In this document: piece after piece, positions 1 through 9,681 of the stretch
Layout of the letters: each line of letters begins with the position of its first letter
How positions within the stretch are numbered: position 1 is the first letter of the stretch
Assembly (NCBI GenBank): GCA_012514185.1
Contig: JAAZAT010000081.1
Location: 1 to 64,000 of the forward strand
DNA from: Spirochaetales bacterium
GTDB lineage: Bacteria > Spirochaetota > Spirochaetia > Sphaerochaetales > Sphaerochaetaceae
DNA: 64,000 nucleotides
Direction: 5' to 3'
The notes under the pieces: generated by a model
The model's input: only the letters and a program-made list of their open reading frames with translations
Told to the model about the DNA's origin: nothing
Databases searched by the model: none
Position numbers and translations under genes: made by a program

Positions 1-109
1 ATACTGTCAAACAGGTATGCATACTGCTGTGTATCAGGTATAGTCATACCAACGCTTATTGTAACGGAACAAACACACCAGTTGTTCTCTACGTACATTG
101 AGGTACCGA

Positions 110-700
110 ATGAAAAAATTCCTGCTGCTTGGCTTATTGATGTGCATCATCGCTACCACGGCTTTTGCTGTTCCCTACTATGATAAGGGAAGTCAAATGT
201 TCTCCTTCACGCTGGGAACATCCTTTCCAACCTTCACCTATTTTTTTAATGACAAGGATTTTCGTGTTGGTTTCGGCGAAAACAATACCGGTGCAAAAGT
301 TGGCGGGTATGGAGCAATCAGCTACCAGGTCTTCAATTCTCCTACTTCAGCAATCGGGGGTGAGATAGGCTATGACTTCAACTTCTCTGCATCCAACATG
401 CTCTTCACCGCTGTTCCCTTCTATGCAAAGTACTCATTCTTCCCTGTCCAAGGGCAGTGGGACCTTCCGATTTCCTTCGGCCTCGGAGGGGCGTATATCA
501 AGTACAACGATGCCTCGTTGATGACTTTGTTCGGCAATATGCAGGTAGGATTGACGTGGTATCCGGGCGATCATTGGGGCTTTGGTTTGACCACCGGGCT
601 TTGGTTGATTCCCGAGTTCAACTATGACGGCGCGCTGAAACAGGATAACGCCCTTGCCGGCTTCATCCCCCTCATCCTCTCTATTACGTATAGACAATAG
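110..700 (+). CDS. Putative outer-membrane beta-barrel-like protein with signal peptide
   Basis: ORF 98..700 opens at TTG; ATG at 110 gives MKKFLLLGLLMCIIATTAFA signal peptide followed by alternating aromatic/Gly-rich strands. Confidence 0.6.
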   Translation: MKKFLLLGLLMCIIATTAFAVPYYDKGSQMFSFTLGTSFPTFTYFFNDKDFRVGFGENNTGAKVGGYGAISYQVFNSPTSAIGGEIGYDFNFSASNMLFTAVPFYAKYSFFPVQGQWDLPISFGLGGAYIKYNDASLMTLFGNMQVGLTWYPGDHWGFGLTTGLWLIPEFNYDGALKQDNALAGFIPLILSITYRQ

Positions 701-711
701 GAGCAGCAATC

Positions 712-1914
712 ATGCAGACAAACCATAGAACTTTCATCTTAATCTCCCTTCTGATAGCAATTCTAGTAATTACCGGCTGTAATGCAGACGCCTCTGCTGG
801 ATTGTTCAGGCAGATCAGCGAGTCCACTACTCCTGTGGGGATTCAATATAGACAACTTTTAGATAAACAAGCCTCTGATCTTTATTTCACTACTACGCAA
901 GGTATTTATGCAACTGATGGGAATACTTCCACTCGAATTAAAGCAAATTCAAAGCGTAGCCGCAATTTGGCAGCTTATTTGGATAGTTCAAAAAATAGAG
1001 TCTTGTTTCTCATCAATGAGCTAGAATCCAACACTAATAGTGCAATAGTAAGGAGTGTGTCTACTGCTTCTCCTTACATTGAATCTGCAAATCTGTCACC
1101 GACGTATTCAGCTTTAACATCTGTTGTAACCCAAAACCTTTATGCGAATGGGCTATTTCGTATTCAAGGGAATGATTCCATAAACGGAAAAACGTTTGTC
1201 TTAGCCACCTACGACGATACCACCCCTGCTTCTCCGGTGTACACCAAGGTTATCGATTTTAGCGAAGTTGGAGATTCACTGACAGGTTATAGTATAGATT
1301 CAGTTTTACAGATGACGGGAAAAGACGCCAATTCTTTGTCATCTACTGATCCAATTATCGTCTCTTTTGCTACGGATGCTGGAGATTATTTGCATTATTA
1401 TACGAATGGTACCTTTAAACACTCTCTTGTCTTAAATACCCGCTTGGCAAACTTTACTATAATCAACGGTAAGCTCTATATCCTAACCACCGATGGAAAG
1501 CTCTATTCTGCTGGCGCCATTCCTACAGCTGCAGGAACAACGACACTTACAAATACCAATGTGTTGGCCTCTTCCAACAAGGTGTATGATCCAAATGCTT
1601 TCATGTATGGTGTCCGTGATGCCGCTGGTTCGATCAATCACATAATCACGAAATCAAAAAGCTTAAACGATCCATTGTATGTGCTTTCATTTTCAGATTC
1701 AGCAACTACGGCAACCGCTGAATCCATTCGCTACGGTTATGGCGAGTATCTTGATTCAGCAGAAATCGTGAGTACTTATGAGAAATCAGCCAATAATCTT
1801 TTAGTTGCTACTGCTGAGAATGGTATGTTTGAAATAACGATTATTCCTTCTTCAGCAAATAGTAATTCAGCTAGTAATGGTACATCCAGCGAATCAGAAG
1901 ATTACACTCTTTAG
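712..1914 (+). CDS. Putative lipoprotein of unknown function
   Basis: N-terminus LISLLIAILVITGC resembles a lipobox; 400 aa ORF ends just before a terminator hairpin. Confidence 0.6.
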   Translation: MQTNHRTFILISLLIAILVITGCNADASAGLFRQISESTTPVGIQYRQLLDKQASDLYFTTTQGIYATDGNTSTRIKANSKRSRNLAAYLDSSKNRVLFLINELESNTNSAIVRSVSTASPYIESANLSPTYSALTSVVTQNLYANGLFRIQGNDSINGKTFVLATYDDTTPASPVYTKVIDFSEVGDSLTGYSIDSVLQMTGKDANSLSSTDPIIVSFATDAGDYLHYYTNGTFKHSLVLNTRLANFTIINGKLYILTTDGKLYSAGAIPTAAGTTTLTNTNVLASSNKVYDPNAFMYGVRDAAGSINHIITKSKSLNDPLYVLSFSDSATTATAESIRYGYGEYLDSAEIVSTYEKSANNLLVATAENGMFEITIIPSSANSNSASNGTSSESEDYTL

Positions 1915-1916
1915 GA

Positions 1917-1952
1917 AATAACACCCCAAGGATTCTTCCCTGGGGTGTTATT
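1917..1952 (+). terminator. Rho-independent (possibly bidirectional) terminator
   Basis: AATAACACCCCAAGG-attctt-CCCTGGGGTGTTATT inverted repeat between convergent genes, followed by CTCTCTT. Confidence 0.75.
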
Positions 1953-1957
1953 CTCTC

Positions 1958-2866
1958 TTAGTTCATCCAGCTGTCTTTGGTATCGAATACCTGGTAATTC
2001 TTCTTGTCATCCATCACTACCTTCACCAAACCATCATTGAGGGTGAGGTGATACTCGGCACCATAGCGCTTGTAGTTGGTGTACACCGTCATACTGTCCA
2101 GCTGATCATGCATGGCGACCACAATCTTTGCGTTCAGGTTCTTGATCCACCTGAGACTGTTTGAGGTATCACCGCCATGGTGGTTGGCCTTCGCTACATC
2201 GGCTTGCAGCTGTTCGCCGTACTTGGTGATAAGGGCACGCTCCTGAACCATATACAGGTCGCCGGAGAACCATGCAGTGGACTGTCCGTACGTCAGCTTC
2301 ATCGCGATCGACTGGTTGTTGATGAACTGGGTAGAATTATCCGGGTAGTTGGGTGGATAGGTGATTTCTTTTGGAGGGTTGTAGACATCCACCTTGATGA
2401 AATCGCCGAACATGAAAGAATCGCCTTCACTGAGAGTGGCAACCGGGAGATTATACTGCTCAAACGCCTGAAGGGCCGCCTGATTCACGTTGGTTCCGTA
2501 GTCGAGATTCGAGCGATACACCTGCTTGATCGGAAAGGCTGCCGCCACCTGGGGGACTCCCCCGATATGGTCGATATGCGGGTGTGAAGCAACAAAGATG
2601 TCGATCGCCTGAACCTTGAGGGCTTTCAGTGCATCGATTACGAGATGGGAACTCTCAGGGTGACCGCTGTCCAGAAGCATGACCTTCCCTTCCGGGCTTA
2701 TCAGGATGGTGGCATCACCGCTCTTGTCGACGGCCTCCGGGCTTACTTCCAAGTCAAGAAAGTAGATGGCAAGCTTGCCGGGCTCCCTGCTCAAATGCGG
2801 AGAAGCAACCAACGAGAGAGCGATGAATACTATGAAAACCAGAGAAAGGAAACGCTTCTTATGCAT
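1958..2866 (-). CDS. MBL-fold metallo-hydrolase (ComEC/Rec2-type extracellular domain-like), exported
   Basis: Start MHKKRFLSLVFIVFIALSLVAS signal peptide; SHPHIDHIGG and NHHGGDTSN motifs. Confidence 0.75.
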   Translation of the reverse strand: MHKKRFLSLVFIVFIALSLVASPHLSREPGKLAIYFLDLEVSPEAVDKSGDATILISPEGKVMLLDSGHPESSHLVIDALKALKVQAIDIFVASHPHIDHIGGVPQVAAAFPIKQVYRSNLDYGTNVNQAALQAFEQYNLPVATLSEGDSFMFGDFIKVDVYNPPKEITYPPNYPDNSTQFINNQSIAMKLTYGQSTAWFSGDLYMVQERALITKYGEQLQADVAKANHHGGDTSNSLRWIKNLNAKIVVAMHDQLDSMTVYTNYKRYGAEYHLTLNDGLVKVVMDDKKNYQVFDTKDSWMN

Positions 2867-3578
2867 GCTTAGCTCCCAACAAGGCAAGAACCGGCTCACA
2901 ATGGTTGGTGAACACACCATCGACCTGCCAGGTGCGCATCCTATGCAAAAGTCCCAGGTCGTCAATGGTCCACACGTTGATTCCGACGCCGTGAGCCTTG
3001 CACTCCTCCACTGCCGCCTTGGTTAAAAAAGCACCATCGGGATGGTAGTACTCAACCTTGAAATTCTTGGCATAGCTGCCGACATTTGCCAAACCCCGAC
3101 CACCGACCAGAAAGGCGCATTGAATTTCTGGTCTCAATTGACGCATCCTGATAACGGACCCATGATTGAAAGAACTGATCAGGGTTTGTTCAACCAAACC
3201 ATACTTCTCGAGCAAGGCCAACACCTTTTCTTCAATGCCAGGATAGTATATCAAATTGGTCTTAATCTCTACATTGGTGAAAATCCCATGTTGCTTCGCC
3301 CACCGGCAATACGTATCAAGACTGGGAATGGCTTGAAATTGTTCCTCCGTGCCGGCATTGAAAGCCTGTAATTCAGCCAAAGTATGGGAGCAGACCAAAC
3401 CTTTTGCATTGGTTGTCCGGTCTAGCATCTCATCATGGATGATGACCAGCTCCCCGTCCTTGGAGAGATGCACATCGAGTTCCATTGCCTTGCATCCAGC
3501 TTCACGTGCCTTATCGAACGCCAACATTGTGTTTTCAGGATACAACCCGCTGTATCCCCGATGTGCGAAGACTCTCAT
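2859..3578 (-). CDS. Glycerophosphodiester phosphodiesterase family protein
   Basis: AHRGYSGLYPENTMLAFDKA, ELDVHLSKDGELVIIHDEMLDRTT, NVEIKT, NVWTIDD motifs. Confidence 0.9.
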   Translation of the reverse strand: MRVFAHRGYSGLYPENTMLAFDKAREAGCKAMELDVHLSKDGELVIIHDEMLDRTTNAKGLVCSHTLAELQAFNAGTEEQFQAIPSLDTYCRWAKQHGIFTNVEIKTNLIYYPGIEEKVLALLEKYGLVEQTLISSFNHGSVIRMRQLRPEIQCAFLVGGRGLANVGSYAKNFKVEYYHPDGAFLTKAAVEECKAHGVGINVWTIDDLGLLHRMRTWQVDGVFTNHCEPVLALLGAKHA

Positions 3579-3589
3579 ATAAACCTTCC

Positions 3590-3715
3590 TTATTTCATTG
3601 CGGTTTTTTCATAACCGGTAAGCATATACTTTTGGAAAATGAAGAACAGGACAATTACGGGAAGAACTGCGAGCAAAGTAAAAATCTTTTCATCTAACGT
3701 TCTCCTTGTGTGGGG
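3590..3715 (-). pseudogene. 3' remnant of a sugar ABC transporter permease (MalG/UgpE-like C-terminus)
   Basis: Hand translation of minus strand: PHTRRTLDEKIFTLLAVLPVIVLFFIFQKYMLTGYEKTAMK*; in-frame stop just upstream; C-terminal pattern LPVIxLFxIFQKY typical of COG0395 permeases. Confidence 0.6.
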
Positions 3716-3874
3716 TTATCCCATGAGACAGTCTACGTTGGACCTGTTCATATGTCAAAGTAAATTTGTGAATTACCATGTTAAAATGTGTTAAATTTTT
3801 ATGTATAATTTTATATATATTAAGCTTATTTAAACATATGCCTTACTGTAAAACAGATAATTGCTTGTATAGTT

Positions 3875-4549
3875 TTAATTTATTACATAAGCGCCAATCC
3901 GTTTATACAACAATCTGAGGAACATGGAAACCACAATACAAGCGGGTCCTGCTGAAAAGATAATTGTTGCAGGAAGAGCGTATATGCTTAAAAACCAAAG
4001 GACTATCACTACAAGCACAGTAATGGTTGTGGCGATATGGGTGATCGAAAGGATGAACGCTCGTGTACAATGCTCCTTTATCGTTTTCTCCTGCACACTC
4101 ATGAGGGCGAAAATATGTAGACTCGGAAACAACAACAATACGTAAAGAGCAACTGCAGCAAAAAAGAGAAATGGGATCGTATTAAGAAAGAACCACGCAT
4201 CAAAGGCTAAAAATACCGTTGCGGCCAGCACTATGATGGTAACGACAATCCCTTGCTTGAAAGACGAAGCAAACGTTGAGAAGAATGTCCGTAACAGATA
4301 TGATTCGCGACCATCCAAGAGTGCAAAACAATACGTAAATAGAGCTATTGTTGCAGGTCCCAGGGTGATGATGGGGAGACTGCAGATAAACCAGAGCAAC
4401 CCGGCCAGAGCGAGGGAATAGAGTTTCATCAGAAAGGACCACACTGCGTTATCAGGGTCGAAGATTGTCTGGATGTCCACCGATATACCTCGCTTTTCAT
4501 TGATGAAGATAGATAGTATCATACGTGGAATGGAAAAGTGAGGCAACAT
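3875..4549 (-). CDS. YesL/DUF624 family membrane protein (true start probably internal)
   Basis: DPDNAVWSFLMKLYSLALAGLLWFICSLPIITLGPATIALFTYCF is characteristic of YesL; multiple TM segments. Confidence 0.75.
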   Translation of the reverse strand: MLPHFSIPRMILSIFINEKRGISVDIQTIFDPDNAVWSFLMKLYSLALAGLLWFICSLPIITLGPATIALFTYCFALLDGRESYLLRTFFSTFASSFKQGIVVTIIVLAATVFLAFDAWFFLNTIPFLFFAAVALYVLLLFPSLHIFALMSVQEKTIKEHCTRAFILSITHIATTITVLVVIVLWFLSIYALPATIIFSAGPACIVVSMFLRLLYKRIGAYVIN

Positions 4550-4553
4550 ACGC

Positions 4554-5147
4554 GTGAAACGGTTTCAGAGACCCAGTATCATCCAAATACTACTACTACT
4601 TGTTGGTTTGCTTGTTGCTGTCTATGTGGCTGACTTGCTTATCCAACGGACAAAAACAATCGTGCTCCAGTTGTTTGTTGCAAACGACGACCAGGATGTG
4701 TTTGAGGCAAAACGCATCGAATCGGAGCTGGCTTCAGTATTCTCCATTCAATCTGATGAACGCATCATCGTCGGTGATTCTCTGTATGTGGTACTTGGCA
4801 GCAGCGACCATTATGTGGAGTCGAGCCTTTCTAAAATCTATGCTTATATGGCTGCAAAGGAACTCGACGCCCTGATAGCTCCTCTGAACGTAGTCGAGCA
4901 CTATGTAAAAGGGCTGCCGATGCTCGACTTTCCCACCCTGCTTTCCCAAAGACCCGGGCTGCTGGAGCGTCTTGCCCCATTTCTTAAAGTTGCTGAATCA
5001 ATTGATGGCCAAGAAAAAGAATACCTGCTTGATTTGACTCAAAGCAGGTATGAACCTTCTACGCCATTTTATATGGCAATACCTCAAAGCGTACCACATA
5101 CTCAGGCGCTCATCACATTTCTACAGTACCTGTTTCCTCTCTACTGA
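4554..5147 (+). CDS. Hypothetical membrane-anchored protein
   Basis: Single N-terminal TM helix (IIQILLLLVGLLVAVYVADLL), no recognised domain. Confidence 0.55.
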   Translation: MKRFQRPSIIQILLLLVGLLVAVYVADLLIQRTKTIVLQLFVANDDQDVFEAKRIESELASVFSIQSDERIIVGDSLYVVLGSSDHYVESSLSKIYAYMAAKELDALIAPLNVVEHYVKGLPMLDFPTLLSQRPGLLERLAPFLKVAESIDGQEKEYLLDLTQSRYEPSTPFYMAIPQSVPHTQALITFLQYLFPLY

Positions 5148-5761
5148 TCGCCCCGGACTTCGTGGAGAATTTCCCTGACCTCCGGATCGGTGAACTGCTC
5201 ATCGACTTCCTGCGAGCTCAAGCCAAGGAACTCGTGGCAGTTGTAATGAATCCATCGTTCATCGTCAGGACTGTTGAGAATATGTTTTCTGCAGTAGTAA
5301 TCCGGCTGGATTGGAAGCGGTTCTTCCTTTTTATAGAGCGGCACCTTGTAGTCGAACACGACAATCTTGATATCCTCACGGGGAATGCCTTTCTGCATAA
5401 TGATCTGTGCAAGGGCATTCACCGTTTTACCGGTATCAAAAATATCGTCTACAAGCAGAATCTTGTCACCGGTGCGCAAATGTTCGGGAGAATAGGTCCA
5501 ACCATCGACCATGACATTTGTCTGGCTTCTTAAAAAACCATAGGAACGGGCAACAACCGCAGCATAAAAGACAGGTCTTCCCTGCTCACGGATACGAACC
5601 ATTTTGTAGTATTCACTGAACACGTTGGCCATGTATGCACCGCCGCGTAAGGAAGCGTAGATAATATCGGGCACAAAGCGGTCTTGTTTGTACATCTGAT
5701 GCGCAAGCTTCAATGCACTGTCGCGAATTGTGTCACAACTGATGAATTCCTTGATTACCAT
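5141..5761 (-). CDS. Phosphoribosyltransferase (hypoxanthine/xanthine PRTase-like)
   Basis: PRPP-binding motif ILLVDDIFDTGKTVNAL. Confidence 0.8.
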   Translation of the reverse strand: MVIKEFISCDTIRDSALKLAHQMYKQDRFVPDIIYASLRGGAYMANVFSEYYKMVRIREQGRPVFYAAVVARSYGFLRSQTNVMVDGWTYSPEHLRTGDKILLVDDIFDTGKTVNALAQIIMQKGIPREDIKIVVFDYKVPLYKKEEPLPIQPDYYCRKHILNSPDDERWIHYNCHEFLGLSSQEVDEQFTDPEVREILHEVRGDQ

Positions 5762-5777
5762 AGCTTCTCCTCGGCTC

Positions 5778-6533
5778 TCAGACTACTGTTAAGATTTCCA
5801 GCCCATTTTGTGTACACGCAACAGTATCCTCAAAATGTGCAGATGGCAACCCATCAAGGGTGACTACCGTCCAATCATTGGCCAGCACCTTCACCTTGTG
5901 GGTACCCAGATTGATCATAGGCTCGATCGCTAAAACCATTCCTTCACGAAGGCGGGGGTTTGGTAGATACGATGATGTGTAGTTGGGTATCTCGGGCTCC
6001 TCATGCACATCCAACCCTACACCGTGACCGCAATAGTCGCGAACGACACCATAGCCGTGCTTGGTGGCGTGCTTGTACACAGCAGCGCCGATATCCTGGA
6101 TTCTTGCATTTTTTGCAGAGGCCGCTTCTATTCCAAGTACCAGGCATTGTTCGGTGACTTCACATAGTTTTCTGTACTCGTCCTTGGTTTTCCCGATAAT
6201 GAAGGTCCGTGCCATATCGGAATAGTGACCATCAAGGTTGATCCCCAGATCGACGTCAACCAAATCTCCTTCCTTGACTATGGTTTTTTTGGACGGAATA
6301 CCATGAATCACCTCTTCATTGACTGAAATGCAGGCGGTTGCCGGAAATCCTTCATAATGGAGAAACGCTGGAACACCTTTGTGCCTGGTTATGAAATCAT
6401 AGCAATACTGATCAATATCCCATGTGGACATTCCCGGCTCGATGAAACTTGAAAGTTGCTGCATCAAACGTGCGGTCAGATGACACGATTCGCGAATCCT
6501 TTTGATCTGTTCTTCAGTCTTCAAACGTATCAT
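5778..6533 (-). CDS. map: Type I methionine aminopeptidase
   Basis: EEVIHGIPS, DVDLGINLDGHYSDMARTF, YCGHGVG, IEPM motifs. Confidence 0.95.
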   Translation of the reverse strand: MIRLKTEEQIKRIRESCHLTARLMQQLSSFIEPGMSTWDIDQYCYDFITRHKGVPAFLHYEGFPATACISVNEEVIHGIPSKKTIVKEGDLVDVDLGINLDGHYSDMARTFIIGKTKDEYRKLCEVTEQCLVLGIEAASAKNARIQDIGAAVYKHATKHGYGVVRDYCGHGVGLDVHEEPEIPNYTSSYLPNPRLREGMVLAIEPMINLGTHKVKVLANDWTVVTLDGLPSAHFEDTVACTQNGLEILTVV

Positions 6534-6972
6534 GCCTGATATGCTCCTTCACGGGAAACAGCTGTTTTTGCATTGTATCAAGAATTCCGTTGATGAACTT
6601 ATAATTCACTTCTGTTGAAAAATCCTGGCTGAGCTTTACAGCTTCATCGATGATGATGTGTGGATGGACATCCCCGTAACGCAGGCAGAATACACTCATC
6701 CGCAACACATTGCGATCGACGATGTCGATACGCTCCAGAGGCCTGTTCAGAGAGTATTTACTGATGAGTTCATCTATCTCGACGAGGTTCTCCAGTGTCC
6801 CACGAACCAGGTACATGCCGTACAGCTTAACCTCTTCCTCAAGCTGCTCATACTCTTCCTCCGTATTCCCGCTGAATATGGCGGGAATGTGGAGAATGTC
6901 GAGTTCCTTGTTGAAATCCATGGCGTACAGTGTCTGCAGTGCCAATTCTCGTGCTTTATGTCTCGTTTTCAT
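6514..6972 (-). CDS. nusB: Transcription antitermination factor NusB
   Basis: RHKARELALQTLYAMDF; RNVLRMSVFCLRY; IIIDEAVKLSQDFS..YKFINGILD. Confidence 0.92.
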   Translation of the reverse strand: MKTRHKARELALQTLYAMDFNKELDILHIPAIFSGNTEEEYEQLEEEVKLYGMYLVRGTLENLVEIDELISKYSLNRPLERIDIVDRNVLRMSVFCLRYGDVHPHIIIDEAVKLSQDFSTEVNYKFINGILDTMQKQLFPVKEHIRHDTFED

Positions 6973-6973
6973 A

Positions 6974-8020
6974 TTACTTCTTGTAAAGGATGTTCACCGT
7001 GGCGCTCTTACGCAAATCATCAACCAAACCATTGATGGCCTGATAATATGTCTCCTGTTGTTTTACGGAAGTAAGTTCGCTTCTGATGTAATCACGAATC
7101 GTACTGGTGGTATTGGGACTGATCGGTTCATCAAGTCCAAGAATCTTGGTCTCATTGTACGCCAGCACCTTGAGGATGTGATAGCCTGTCAGGGAAGTGA
7201 CTACCGGGCTCGTGGTCCCTACATCGGTTGTGAAGGCAACATCGAAGAATGCATCGCCGAGCCCGGCCTGGGCATCGGTGTTGTCCATGGTGAGCCAGCC
7301 GATATCACCGGCTTTATTCTTACTCTGTGCATCCTGCGAATAATCGACGACAGCCTTTTCGAATGTCATCGTTCCAGCCTTGATTTTTGCCGCCACCTCA
7401 TCCAACGTCGCCTTATTCTTGTCATTGGTTGCCTGGTCGGCGGAAAAGGGAATATAGATGTGGCTGAGCTTTACAGTCTCAGGACTTACGAACTGAGTCC
7501 TGTTCTTCCGATAAAAACTATTGATTTCAGTGTCGGTTATTGAAACAGGCTTGTTCAATACATCGGCCTTCTTCAGCCTGACATACGAATCCACCATCAA
7601 TTGCTCACCTACCATCTTGCGATATGCTTCCACCGATCCGAAGTTGTTCTTGATTACCTCGGAGAACTGTTCATCGCTGATGTTCTGCCCGTAGGATGCT
7701 TCCAAATTTGCTTTCTGGGAAGCATACGCGCTATCGATCATACTGTCGGTAATCTTGACTCCATCACGGGCTGCGCCTTGACGGAAGAGTTCATTGTTTA
7801 TAAGAAGGTTTAAAACCTGCAGGGGATCGATGGTGGAGGGATCCTGTCCTGCCGTCTTTGCACTCTGTTGATATTCAGCAACTTCGGCATCAAGCTCAGC
7901 CATGCTGATCGGGGTGGTTTTTGTAAGTCTGACGGTTGCAGCAGGTGCTCCGATAGTGGCGGCAACAAGGTGAAAACCGACAAGCAGCATGACTGCGATA
8001 ACAATTGCTCTACGTTTCAT
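6974..8020 (-). CDS. Exported parvulin-type peptidyl-prolyl isomerase (SurA/PrsA-like)
   Basis: Signal peptide MKRRAIVIAVMLLVGFHLVAA; SHIYIPF..VDYSQDAQSKNKAGDIGWL..VTSLTGYHILKV. Confidence 0.85.
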   Translation of the reverse strand: MKRRAIVIAVMLLVGFHLVAATIGAPAATVRLTKTTPISMAELDAEVAEYQQSAKTAGQDPSTIDPLQVLNLLINNELFRQGAARDGVKITDSMIDSAYASQKANLEASYGQNISDEQFSEVIKNNFGSVEAYRKMVGEQLMVDSYVRLKKADVLNKPVSITDTEINSFYRKNRTQFVSPETVKLSHIYIPFSADQATNDKNKATLDEVAAKIKAGTMTFEKAVVDYSQDAQSKNKAGDIGWLTMDNTDAQAGLGDAFFDVAFTTDVGTTSPVVTSLTGYHILKVLAYNETKILGLDEPISPNTTSTIRDYIRSELTSVKQQETYYQAINGLVDDLRKSATVNILYKK

Positions 8021-8079
8021 ATACGATACTCCTAGGGTCTTCATGCTCACAAGGTACTCTTTTACAGGAAGAGAATCAA

Positions 8080-8493
8080 TCAAATCTGTAGATGTTTGCC
8101 AACAGCCTTGGCAAAATCAACTTTGGAAATCAGTTCGCTCTTTTTGAGGAACATTCCCTCTTTCTCCATGGCTTTCATCAGTGTCTGCAAGGTTTTCATC
8201 GATCGTACTCCACCCTTGGTAATAAATGCCATGCACCGTTTACCGGAAATACTGCCTGCAGTTTTCAGGAAGCCGGATACCGAGTTTGGGATTTTTCCAC
8301 CAAAGAAGGTCGGGCTTTCCGTACCGATAATCAGATAATCGTAAAAGGAGACGATTTTGCCCGTCTCAAGGGTCATATCAAGCACGTCCACTTGGTGCCC
8401 CTGGGCTGAAATCCCCTCACTGAGCGCTTTGGCTATCGCCTTCATCTTCTCATTGCCTTTCGCAGCTGGTGCATACAGGACACAAACTCGCAT
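8080..8493 (-). CDS. Flavodoxin-family protein
   Basis: MRVCVLYAPAAKGNEKMKAIAKAL; YDYLIIGTESPTFFGGKIP; flavodoxin-like fold pattern. Confidence 0.65.
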   Translation of the reverse strand: MRVCVLYAPAAKGNEKMKAIAKALSEGISAQGHQVDVLDMTLETGKIVSFYDYLIIGTESPTFFGGKIPNSVSGFLKTAGSISGKRCMAFITKGGVRSMKTLQTLMKAMEKEGMFLKKSELISKVDFAKAVGKHLQI

Positions 8494-8566
8494 GATACCT
8501 CCCTTGAAACAGCTACCGACCGCAATTACGCGGCCGGTAGTCACTAGTTAGAACGTTGCTACCGTC

Positions 8567-8911
8567 CTAGTTGGTACTGGGTACTTCACCAGCGGCTGCA
8601 GCTTCACTGGCATTCCACCAGTCGGTTGTCTGCTGTACCTGTTCAGTGGTTACGGAGTTGAGCAGTTTGTCTTGAGACGGAGTCTTGTTGACAAAGGCTA
8701 CTACGAGAGCCAGTACCAAAAAGAGTACGGCAAGCGTCCCCGTGGCCTTCGTTACAACACTGCTTGCGTGTGAACCAAAGGCGGTATTGCTTCCACCACC
8801 AAAAATGCCACCCAAGCCTTCACTCTGCTCATCTTGTACTGCAACAAGGAAGATCAAAAGCAGGCTGACAATCACGAATAAGACCAACAGAATAATGCTC
8901 AAAACACCCAT
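8567..8911 (-). CDS. secG: Preprotein translocase subunit SecG
   Basis: Two TMs, VQDEQSEGLGGIFGGGSNTAFGSHASSVVTKATGTLAVLFLVLALV. Confidence 0.9.
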   Translation of the reverse strand: MGVLSIILLVLFVIVSLLLIFLVAVQDEQSEGLGGIFGGGSNTAFGSHASSVVTKATGTLAVLFLVLALVVAFVNKTPSQDKLLNSVTTEQVQQTTDWWNASEAAAAGEVPSTN

Positions 8912-8928
8912 TTCTCTACTCCGGTTAC

Positions 8929-9681
8929 TTACTTATCGAAGTTGACAATCGGAAGAAATTGCTCCACAGAAAGTGAAGCCCCACCCACCAATGCACCATC
9001 GATATGTTCCTTGGACATCAAGGCTTTCGCATTCGAAGCCTTCACTGAACCACCATACTGTATAATGAGCTCTTCTGCAACACCCTTTGTATAGAGTTTT
9101 GCAATAAGAGAACGGATGAAAGCATGTGCGGCATCAGCATCTTCGGGGGTTGCAGTCTTGCCGGTACCGATGGCCCAAACCGGCTCATACGCCAACGTGA
9201 TGCTTTTCATCTGCTCGGCTTTCACTCCCTTGAGGCCTTCCGTCACCTGTCTGGTCAACACTTCTTCCAACTTGCCGCTCTCGCGTTCAGAGAGGGTCTC
9301 GCCGATGCACAAATCAACATCCATTCCCTGCGAAAGGGCCAACAGCACTTTCTTGTTGATGAACTGGTCGGTCTCACCATAGAGGGCCCGTCTTTCACTA
9401 TGGCCGAGGATCACCGTATTGACGCCAAGGTCCTTGAGCATCAGGGCACTGACCTCTCCGGTGAAGGCACCGCTGAGATTGTCGCTCATATTCTGGGCTG
9501 CAACAATGATCGAGGAGCCTTTGACGGCCTCGACTACACTGGGAATAGTGACAAACGGCGGGGCGATCATCACCTTCACATTTGAGCCCTTCAAGGCTTC
9601 AACCAACTCCTTGGCGAACGCTGCGCCTTCGCTGGGAGTCATATTCATTTTCCAGTTGCCTGCGATATAGGGTTTTCTCAT
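8929..9681 (-). CDS. tpiA: Triosephosphate isomerase
   Basis: MRKPYIAGNWKMN; ILGHSERR; AYEPVWAIGTGKTA; IQYGGSV. Confidence 0.97.
   Translation of the reverse strand: MRKPYIAGNWKMNMTPSEGAAFAKELVEALKGSNVKVMIAPPFVTIPSVVEAVKGSSIIVAAQNMSDNLSGAFTGEVSALMLKDLGVNTVILGHSERRALYGETDQFINKKVLLALSQGMDVDLCIGETLSERESGKLEEVLTRQVTEGLKGVKAEQMKSITLAYEPVWAIGTGKTATPEDADAAHAFIRSLIAKLYTKGVAEELIIQYGGSVKASNAKALMSKEHIDGALVGGASLSVEQFLPIVNFDK

Follow-up and report, generated by a model that had tools for sequence, protein, structure and literature searches.

In Escherichia coli, the ugpBAECQ operon encodes an ABC importer for glycerol-3-phosphate and glycerophosphodiesters together with the cytosolic GDPD UgpQ (PMC5438359). 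A related arrangement is found in the genus from which the DNA described here originates. In 10 of the 10 relatives compared (G005, G018, G001, G019, G017, G012, G016, G041, G006, and G020), tblastn recovered the gene order YesL, binding protein, UgpA-like permease, UgpE-like permease, GDPD, and metallo-beta-lactamase-fold (MBL) protein. It resembles the E. coli system in the best NCBIfam matches of its products: UgpB for the binding protein, UgpA and UgpE for the permeases, and the E. coli type for the GDPD. Unlike in the E. coli system, these matches remain well below the curated equivalog cut-offs, an ATPase gene is missing from the operon, and a YesL-type gene lies upstream and an MBL-fold gene downstream.

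The intact operon in congeneric genomes

An orthologue of the UgpE-like permease (83-100% identity) was present in 10 of the 25 other genomes of the genus that were searched, and in all 10 the GDPD gene adjoins ugpE. The binding protein is of the SBP_bac_8 type and the two permeases are of the BPD_transp_1 type, each above the Pfam gathering score, and the operon thus composed has the make-up of a CUT1-type ABC importer. Of the NCBIfam models, UgpB, UgpA, UgpE, and the UgpQ-type GDPD come closest, all of them below cut-off (best scores: UgpB, 58/411 bits; UgpA, 114/335; UgpE, 129/297). Since the equivalog scores of UgpB, UgpA, and UgpE are not reached, the operon is here called Ugp-like only. 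Between the YesL and MBL genes of G005, no other ORF in the orientation of the operon has the size of an ATPase gene such as ugpC. Among the PDB relatives of the binding protein are several UgpB proteins and also sugar-binding proteins. A Ugp-like role of the importer is plausible.

In the window (the whole stretch of 64,000 nucleotides that was analyzed, part of an 82-kb contig, C119), the outer genes of this arrangement are in place, and only the two ends of its central portion are left:

1958..2866, minus strand: metallo-beta-lactamase-fold protein, downstream neighbor (Pfam Lactamase_B; same order in all relatives)
2859..3578, minus strand: GDPD (UgpQ-like), intact (Pfam GDPD, E = 1.5e-41; 94% identical to G005)
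3590..3676, minus strand: ugpE-like permease remnant, last 27 codons and stop (tblastn and DNA match to G005)
3655..3693, minus strand: retained binding-protein gene start, ATG and about 6 codons (translation and comparison with G005)
3675..3676: probable deletion junction (both blastn segments include window position 3675; junction comparison)
3730..3758, minus strand: predicted sigma-70-like promoter of the operon, TTGACA-N17-TAGACT (scan and conservation in relatives)
3875..4549, minus strand: YesL/DUF624 (MusI-like) membrane protein, upstream neighbor (Pfam DUF624, E = 3.2e-14; NCBIfam MusI family, below cut-off)
about 3217..9111: mosaic block, about 99% identical to G005 (identity profiles; the exact run ends at 9111)

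Several further observations concern the neighboring genes. A scan of contigs with the GDPD protein returned distant genomes only, none of them useful. On the plus strand, window 712-1914 encodes a predicted lipoprotein of 400 aa for which a Pfam search gave no match; most of the gene is without a DNA match to G005, though a counterpart of 398 aa occupies the same place there, which suggests that it evolves fast. One or two internal stops were reported in several of the YesL matches from G001, G041, G017, G019, and G012, possibly reflecting decay or merely the ends of genes.

Remnants at the junction

The minus-strand frame 3718-3590 reads PHTRRTLDEKIFTLLAVLPVIVLFFIFQKYMLTGYEKTAMK between two stops, comprises 41 residues, and ends C-terminally in LAVLPVIVLFFIFQKYMLTGYEKTAMK. 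A preliminary description of this DNA had interpreted the whole frame as the C-terminal fragment of a permease, noting an in-frame stop just upstream, which lies at 3718-3716, and the omission of the frame from the ORF track, which is explained by the absence of a usable in-frame start. The permease assignment holds for the last 27 aa (LAVLPV...TAMK) only: residues 268-295 of the intact G005 permease match window 3676-3593 with 96.4% identity (tblastn, E = 5e-12), and the underlying DNA is near-identical to the 3' end of the G005 ugpE gene. As a sequence match this is far above chance, and the UgpE/MalG-type C-terminus that had been proposed equals the end of the complete permease (295 aa) that G005 has at this site. 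For the preceding residues the assignment fails, as PHTRRTLDEKIFTL, N-terminal to the permease part, is an out-of-frame reading of the binding-protein gene, covering its leader and first codons. A Pfam search with the 27-aa tail alone gave no match, as expected at such a length. With a stop upstream in frame and no start, the remnant is predicted to yield no permease.

It had further been proposed that the permease end was fused to AT-rich sequence. This turned out otherwise: upstream of the remnant lie the operon's own promoter, Shine-Dalgarno sequence, and binding-protein start codon. The G005 binding protein begins ATGAAAAGATTTGTACTT, and the retained start now forms a frame of 12 codons, MKRFLLCSQFFP followed by a stop, that enters the ugpE remnant out of frame. 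A bare promoter scan of the region finds TTGACA-N17-TAGACT, but the count of hits is not above shuffled or chance expectation, so the evidence for the promoter is its conservation: the window and nine of the ten relatives have TTGAC[A/T]-N17-TAGACT, equally far from the start codon in each, G018 being the one that differs. By this prediction, the conserved operon promoter now has GDPD as its first full gene. With promoter, Shine-Dalgarno sequence, and first codons kept, transcription would run through the 12-codon frame and on into GDPD and MBL, both of them intact and both likely transcribed straight from the retained promoter.

Window positions 1-3675 and 3675-9000 match G005 at two sites 3,076 bp apart, so that G005 position 1711315 is joined to 1714391. 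In G005, the intervening piece encodes a binding protein (438 aa) and two permeases (301 and 295 aa). The join links binding-protein codon 6 to ugpE codon 269, contains no Ns, and has 1 bp common to both sides. The junction reads ...AAGGAGAACGTTAG ATG AAAAGATTTTTACTT T GCTCGCAGTTCTTCCC..., where the first part equals the G005 binding-protein start with one mismatch and the second equals ugpE from codon 269. The mismatch in the binding-protein stretch sits 5 bp from the junction and could hint at a faulty join. Both end remnants of the missing segment flank the junction in their original order and strand. A search of limited breadth did not recover this deletion in any other genome.

The mosaic block and a second allele

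The whole scar lies inside a 5.9-kb block with about 99% identity to G005; elsewhere on the contig, identity to G005 is about 80%. The same assembly holds a second copy of window 3868-9067 on contig C58 (5,183 bp), which is 81% identical to the window, 81.5% to G005, and 79% to G018, values similar to those of the backbone. C58 ends in an exact 60-bp word common to window 9008-9067, G005, and G018. At its left end, C119 (window 1-127) shares an exact overlap of 127 bp with the end of contig C300, likely the k-mer overlap of the assembler, with C300 as the neighboring contig. Given its fragmentation, the assembly (86% complete, 315 contigs, alleles mixed) appears to be a metagenome bin, and the bin is a strain mixture because genes that are normally single-copy, such as map and nusB, have two alleles. 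According to the GUNC authors, misassembly and mis-binning are the main sources of error in metagenome-assembled genomes, misassembly being the rarer (PMC8201837).

Other G005-like blocks were sampled by comparing five further 20-kb segments of G005 with the genome under study. Four of these gave identities of roughly 75-91% without long near-identical blocks, with short pieces at contig ends reaching 94-98%. For the fifth, contig C236 carries about 6.5 kb at about 97-98% identity to G005 in a backbone of 76-80%; no second copy of this block was found in the genome, which is consistent with repeated import. By eye, the ORFs of the C236 block (about 751-7300) resemble a TRAP-transporter operon that includes a regulator of the GntR type and a short-chain dehydrogenase. 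The C236 block favors real exchange with a G005-like relative on at least one occasion, and C58 favors a strain mixture at the scar locus. Two routes could have brought the scar block onto the contig: homologous import, with a G005-like relative as the donor, or the co-assembly of a second strain. A more specific scenario, tentative and rather doubtful, has a congeneric species (genome-wide identity about 80%) as the donor of a block of about 6 kb. Homologous recombination would have exchanged this block for the native locus, and a ready-made operon deletion would have come with it, so that transporter loss would have passed between species.

Origin of the scar

Taken together, the feature is very probably a scar left by one deletion of 3,076 bp in a Ugp-like ABC-import operon, located in G005-like DNA that was imported or co-assembled. 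The deletion would have taken out nearly all of the binding-protein, UgpA-like, and UgpE-like genes between YesL and GDPD, starting after binding-protein codon 6 and ending before ugpE codon 269. As only 1 bp is common to both break ends, it would have arisen by end-joining or replication slippage and not by long-repeat recombination; a deletion via long direct repeats is ruled out by the same feature of the join. A deletion at the border between donor and recipient DNA is likewise ruled out, G005-like sequence being present on both flanks. Because both flanks are about 99% identical to G005 and their surroundings about 80%, sequence comparison assigns the deletion best to G005-like DNA; this lineage would be the one that lost the operon, and the loss may not apply to the host species. 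The earlier proposal that an ABC operon had lost its binding-protein and permease genes here is borne out by the intact operon at this site, with a complete permease gene just upstream of GDPD, in ten congeneric genomes. Neither an absence of permease homology nor a genus-wide scar arrangement without an intact ancestor was found. A search for a relocated operon within the assembly (86% complete, strain-mixed) found no orthologue: the best match to the permease was 34% identical, and for the binding protein nothing exceeded 33%, the best-scoring match being 27%.

It is unlikely, though the most serious alternative, that the junction is an assembly artefact in which a contig tip with the start of the binding-protein gene was misjoined to one with the end of ugpE, the deletion existing in no cell. 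The contig is mosaic, the bin holds two alleles of the neighboring region, one contig terminates precisely on sequence that is shared, and the mismatch lies close to the join. However, k-mer misjoins require long shared words, whereas the two sides of this join share a single base pair; the exact overlap with the neighboring contig points to a long final k-mer, and the join is free of Ns. The hydrophobic character of the small frame and its 41 open codons might recall a functional short membrane peptide, a reading that can be given almost no weight: its in-frame start codon lies only deep inside, the ribosome-binding site serves another frame, and the sequence corresponds to the last part of a full-length gene and occurs as a separate gene in no relative. 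Equally improbable is that the operon was inserted in the relatives and that the window represents the ancestral empty site, for which the size difference alone would speak; the window retains both operon ends in correct orientation and order, and the operon occupies the same place in ten relatives.

On the preferred reading, a single deletion in G005-like DNA, a conserved Ugp-like importer was lost, and the phosphodiesterase that partners it was kept along with the promoter. The locus further illustrates that claims of gene loss from draft bins need an allele check, as the loss here sits in DNA near-identical to another species. If the block was truly imported, it would be an example of gene loss spreading between species via homologous replacement. 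The scar itself is an ordinary deletion scar. Like other bacterial gene-loss scars left by short-homology deletions, it retains both gene ends and lacks the interior, with the neighboring genes intact here and intact orthologues in relatives. From such scars it does not differ in kind; the one here lies inside a mosaic block.
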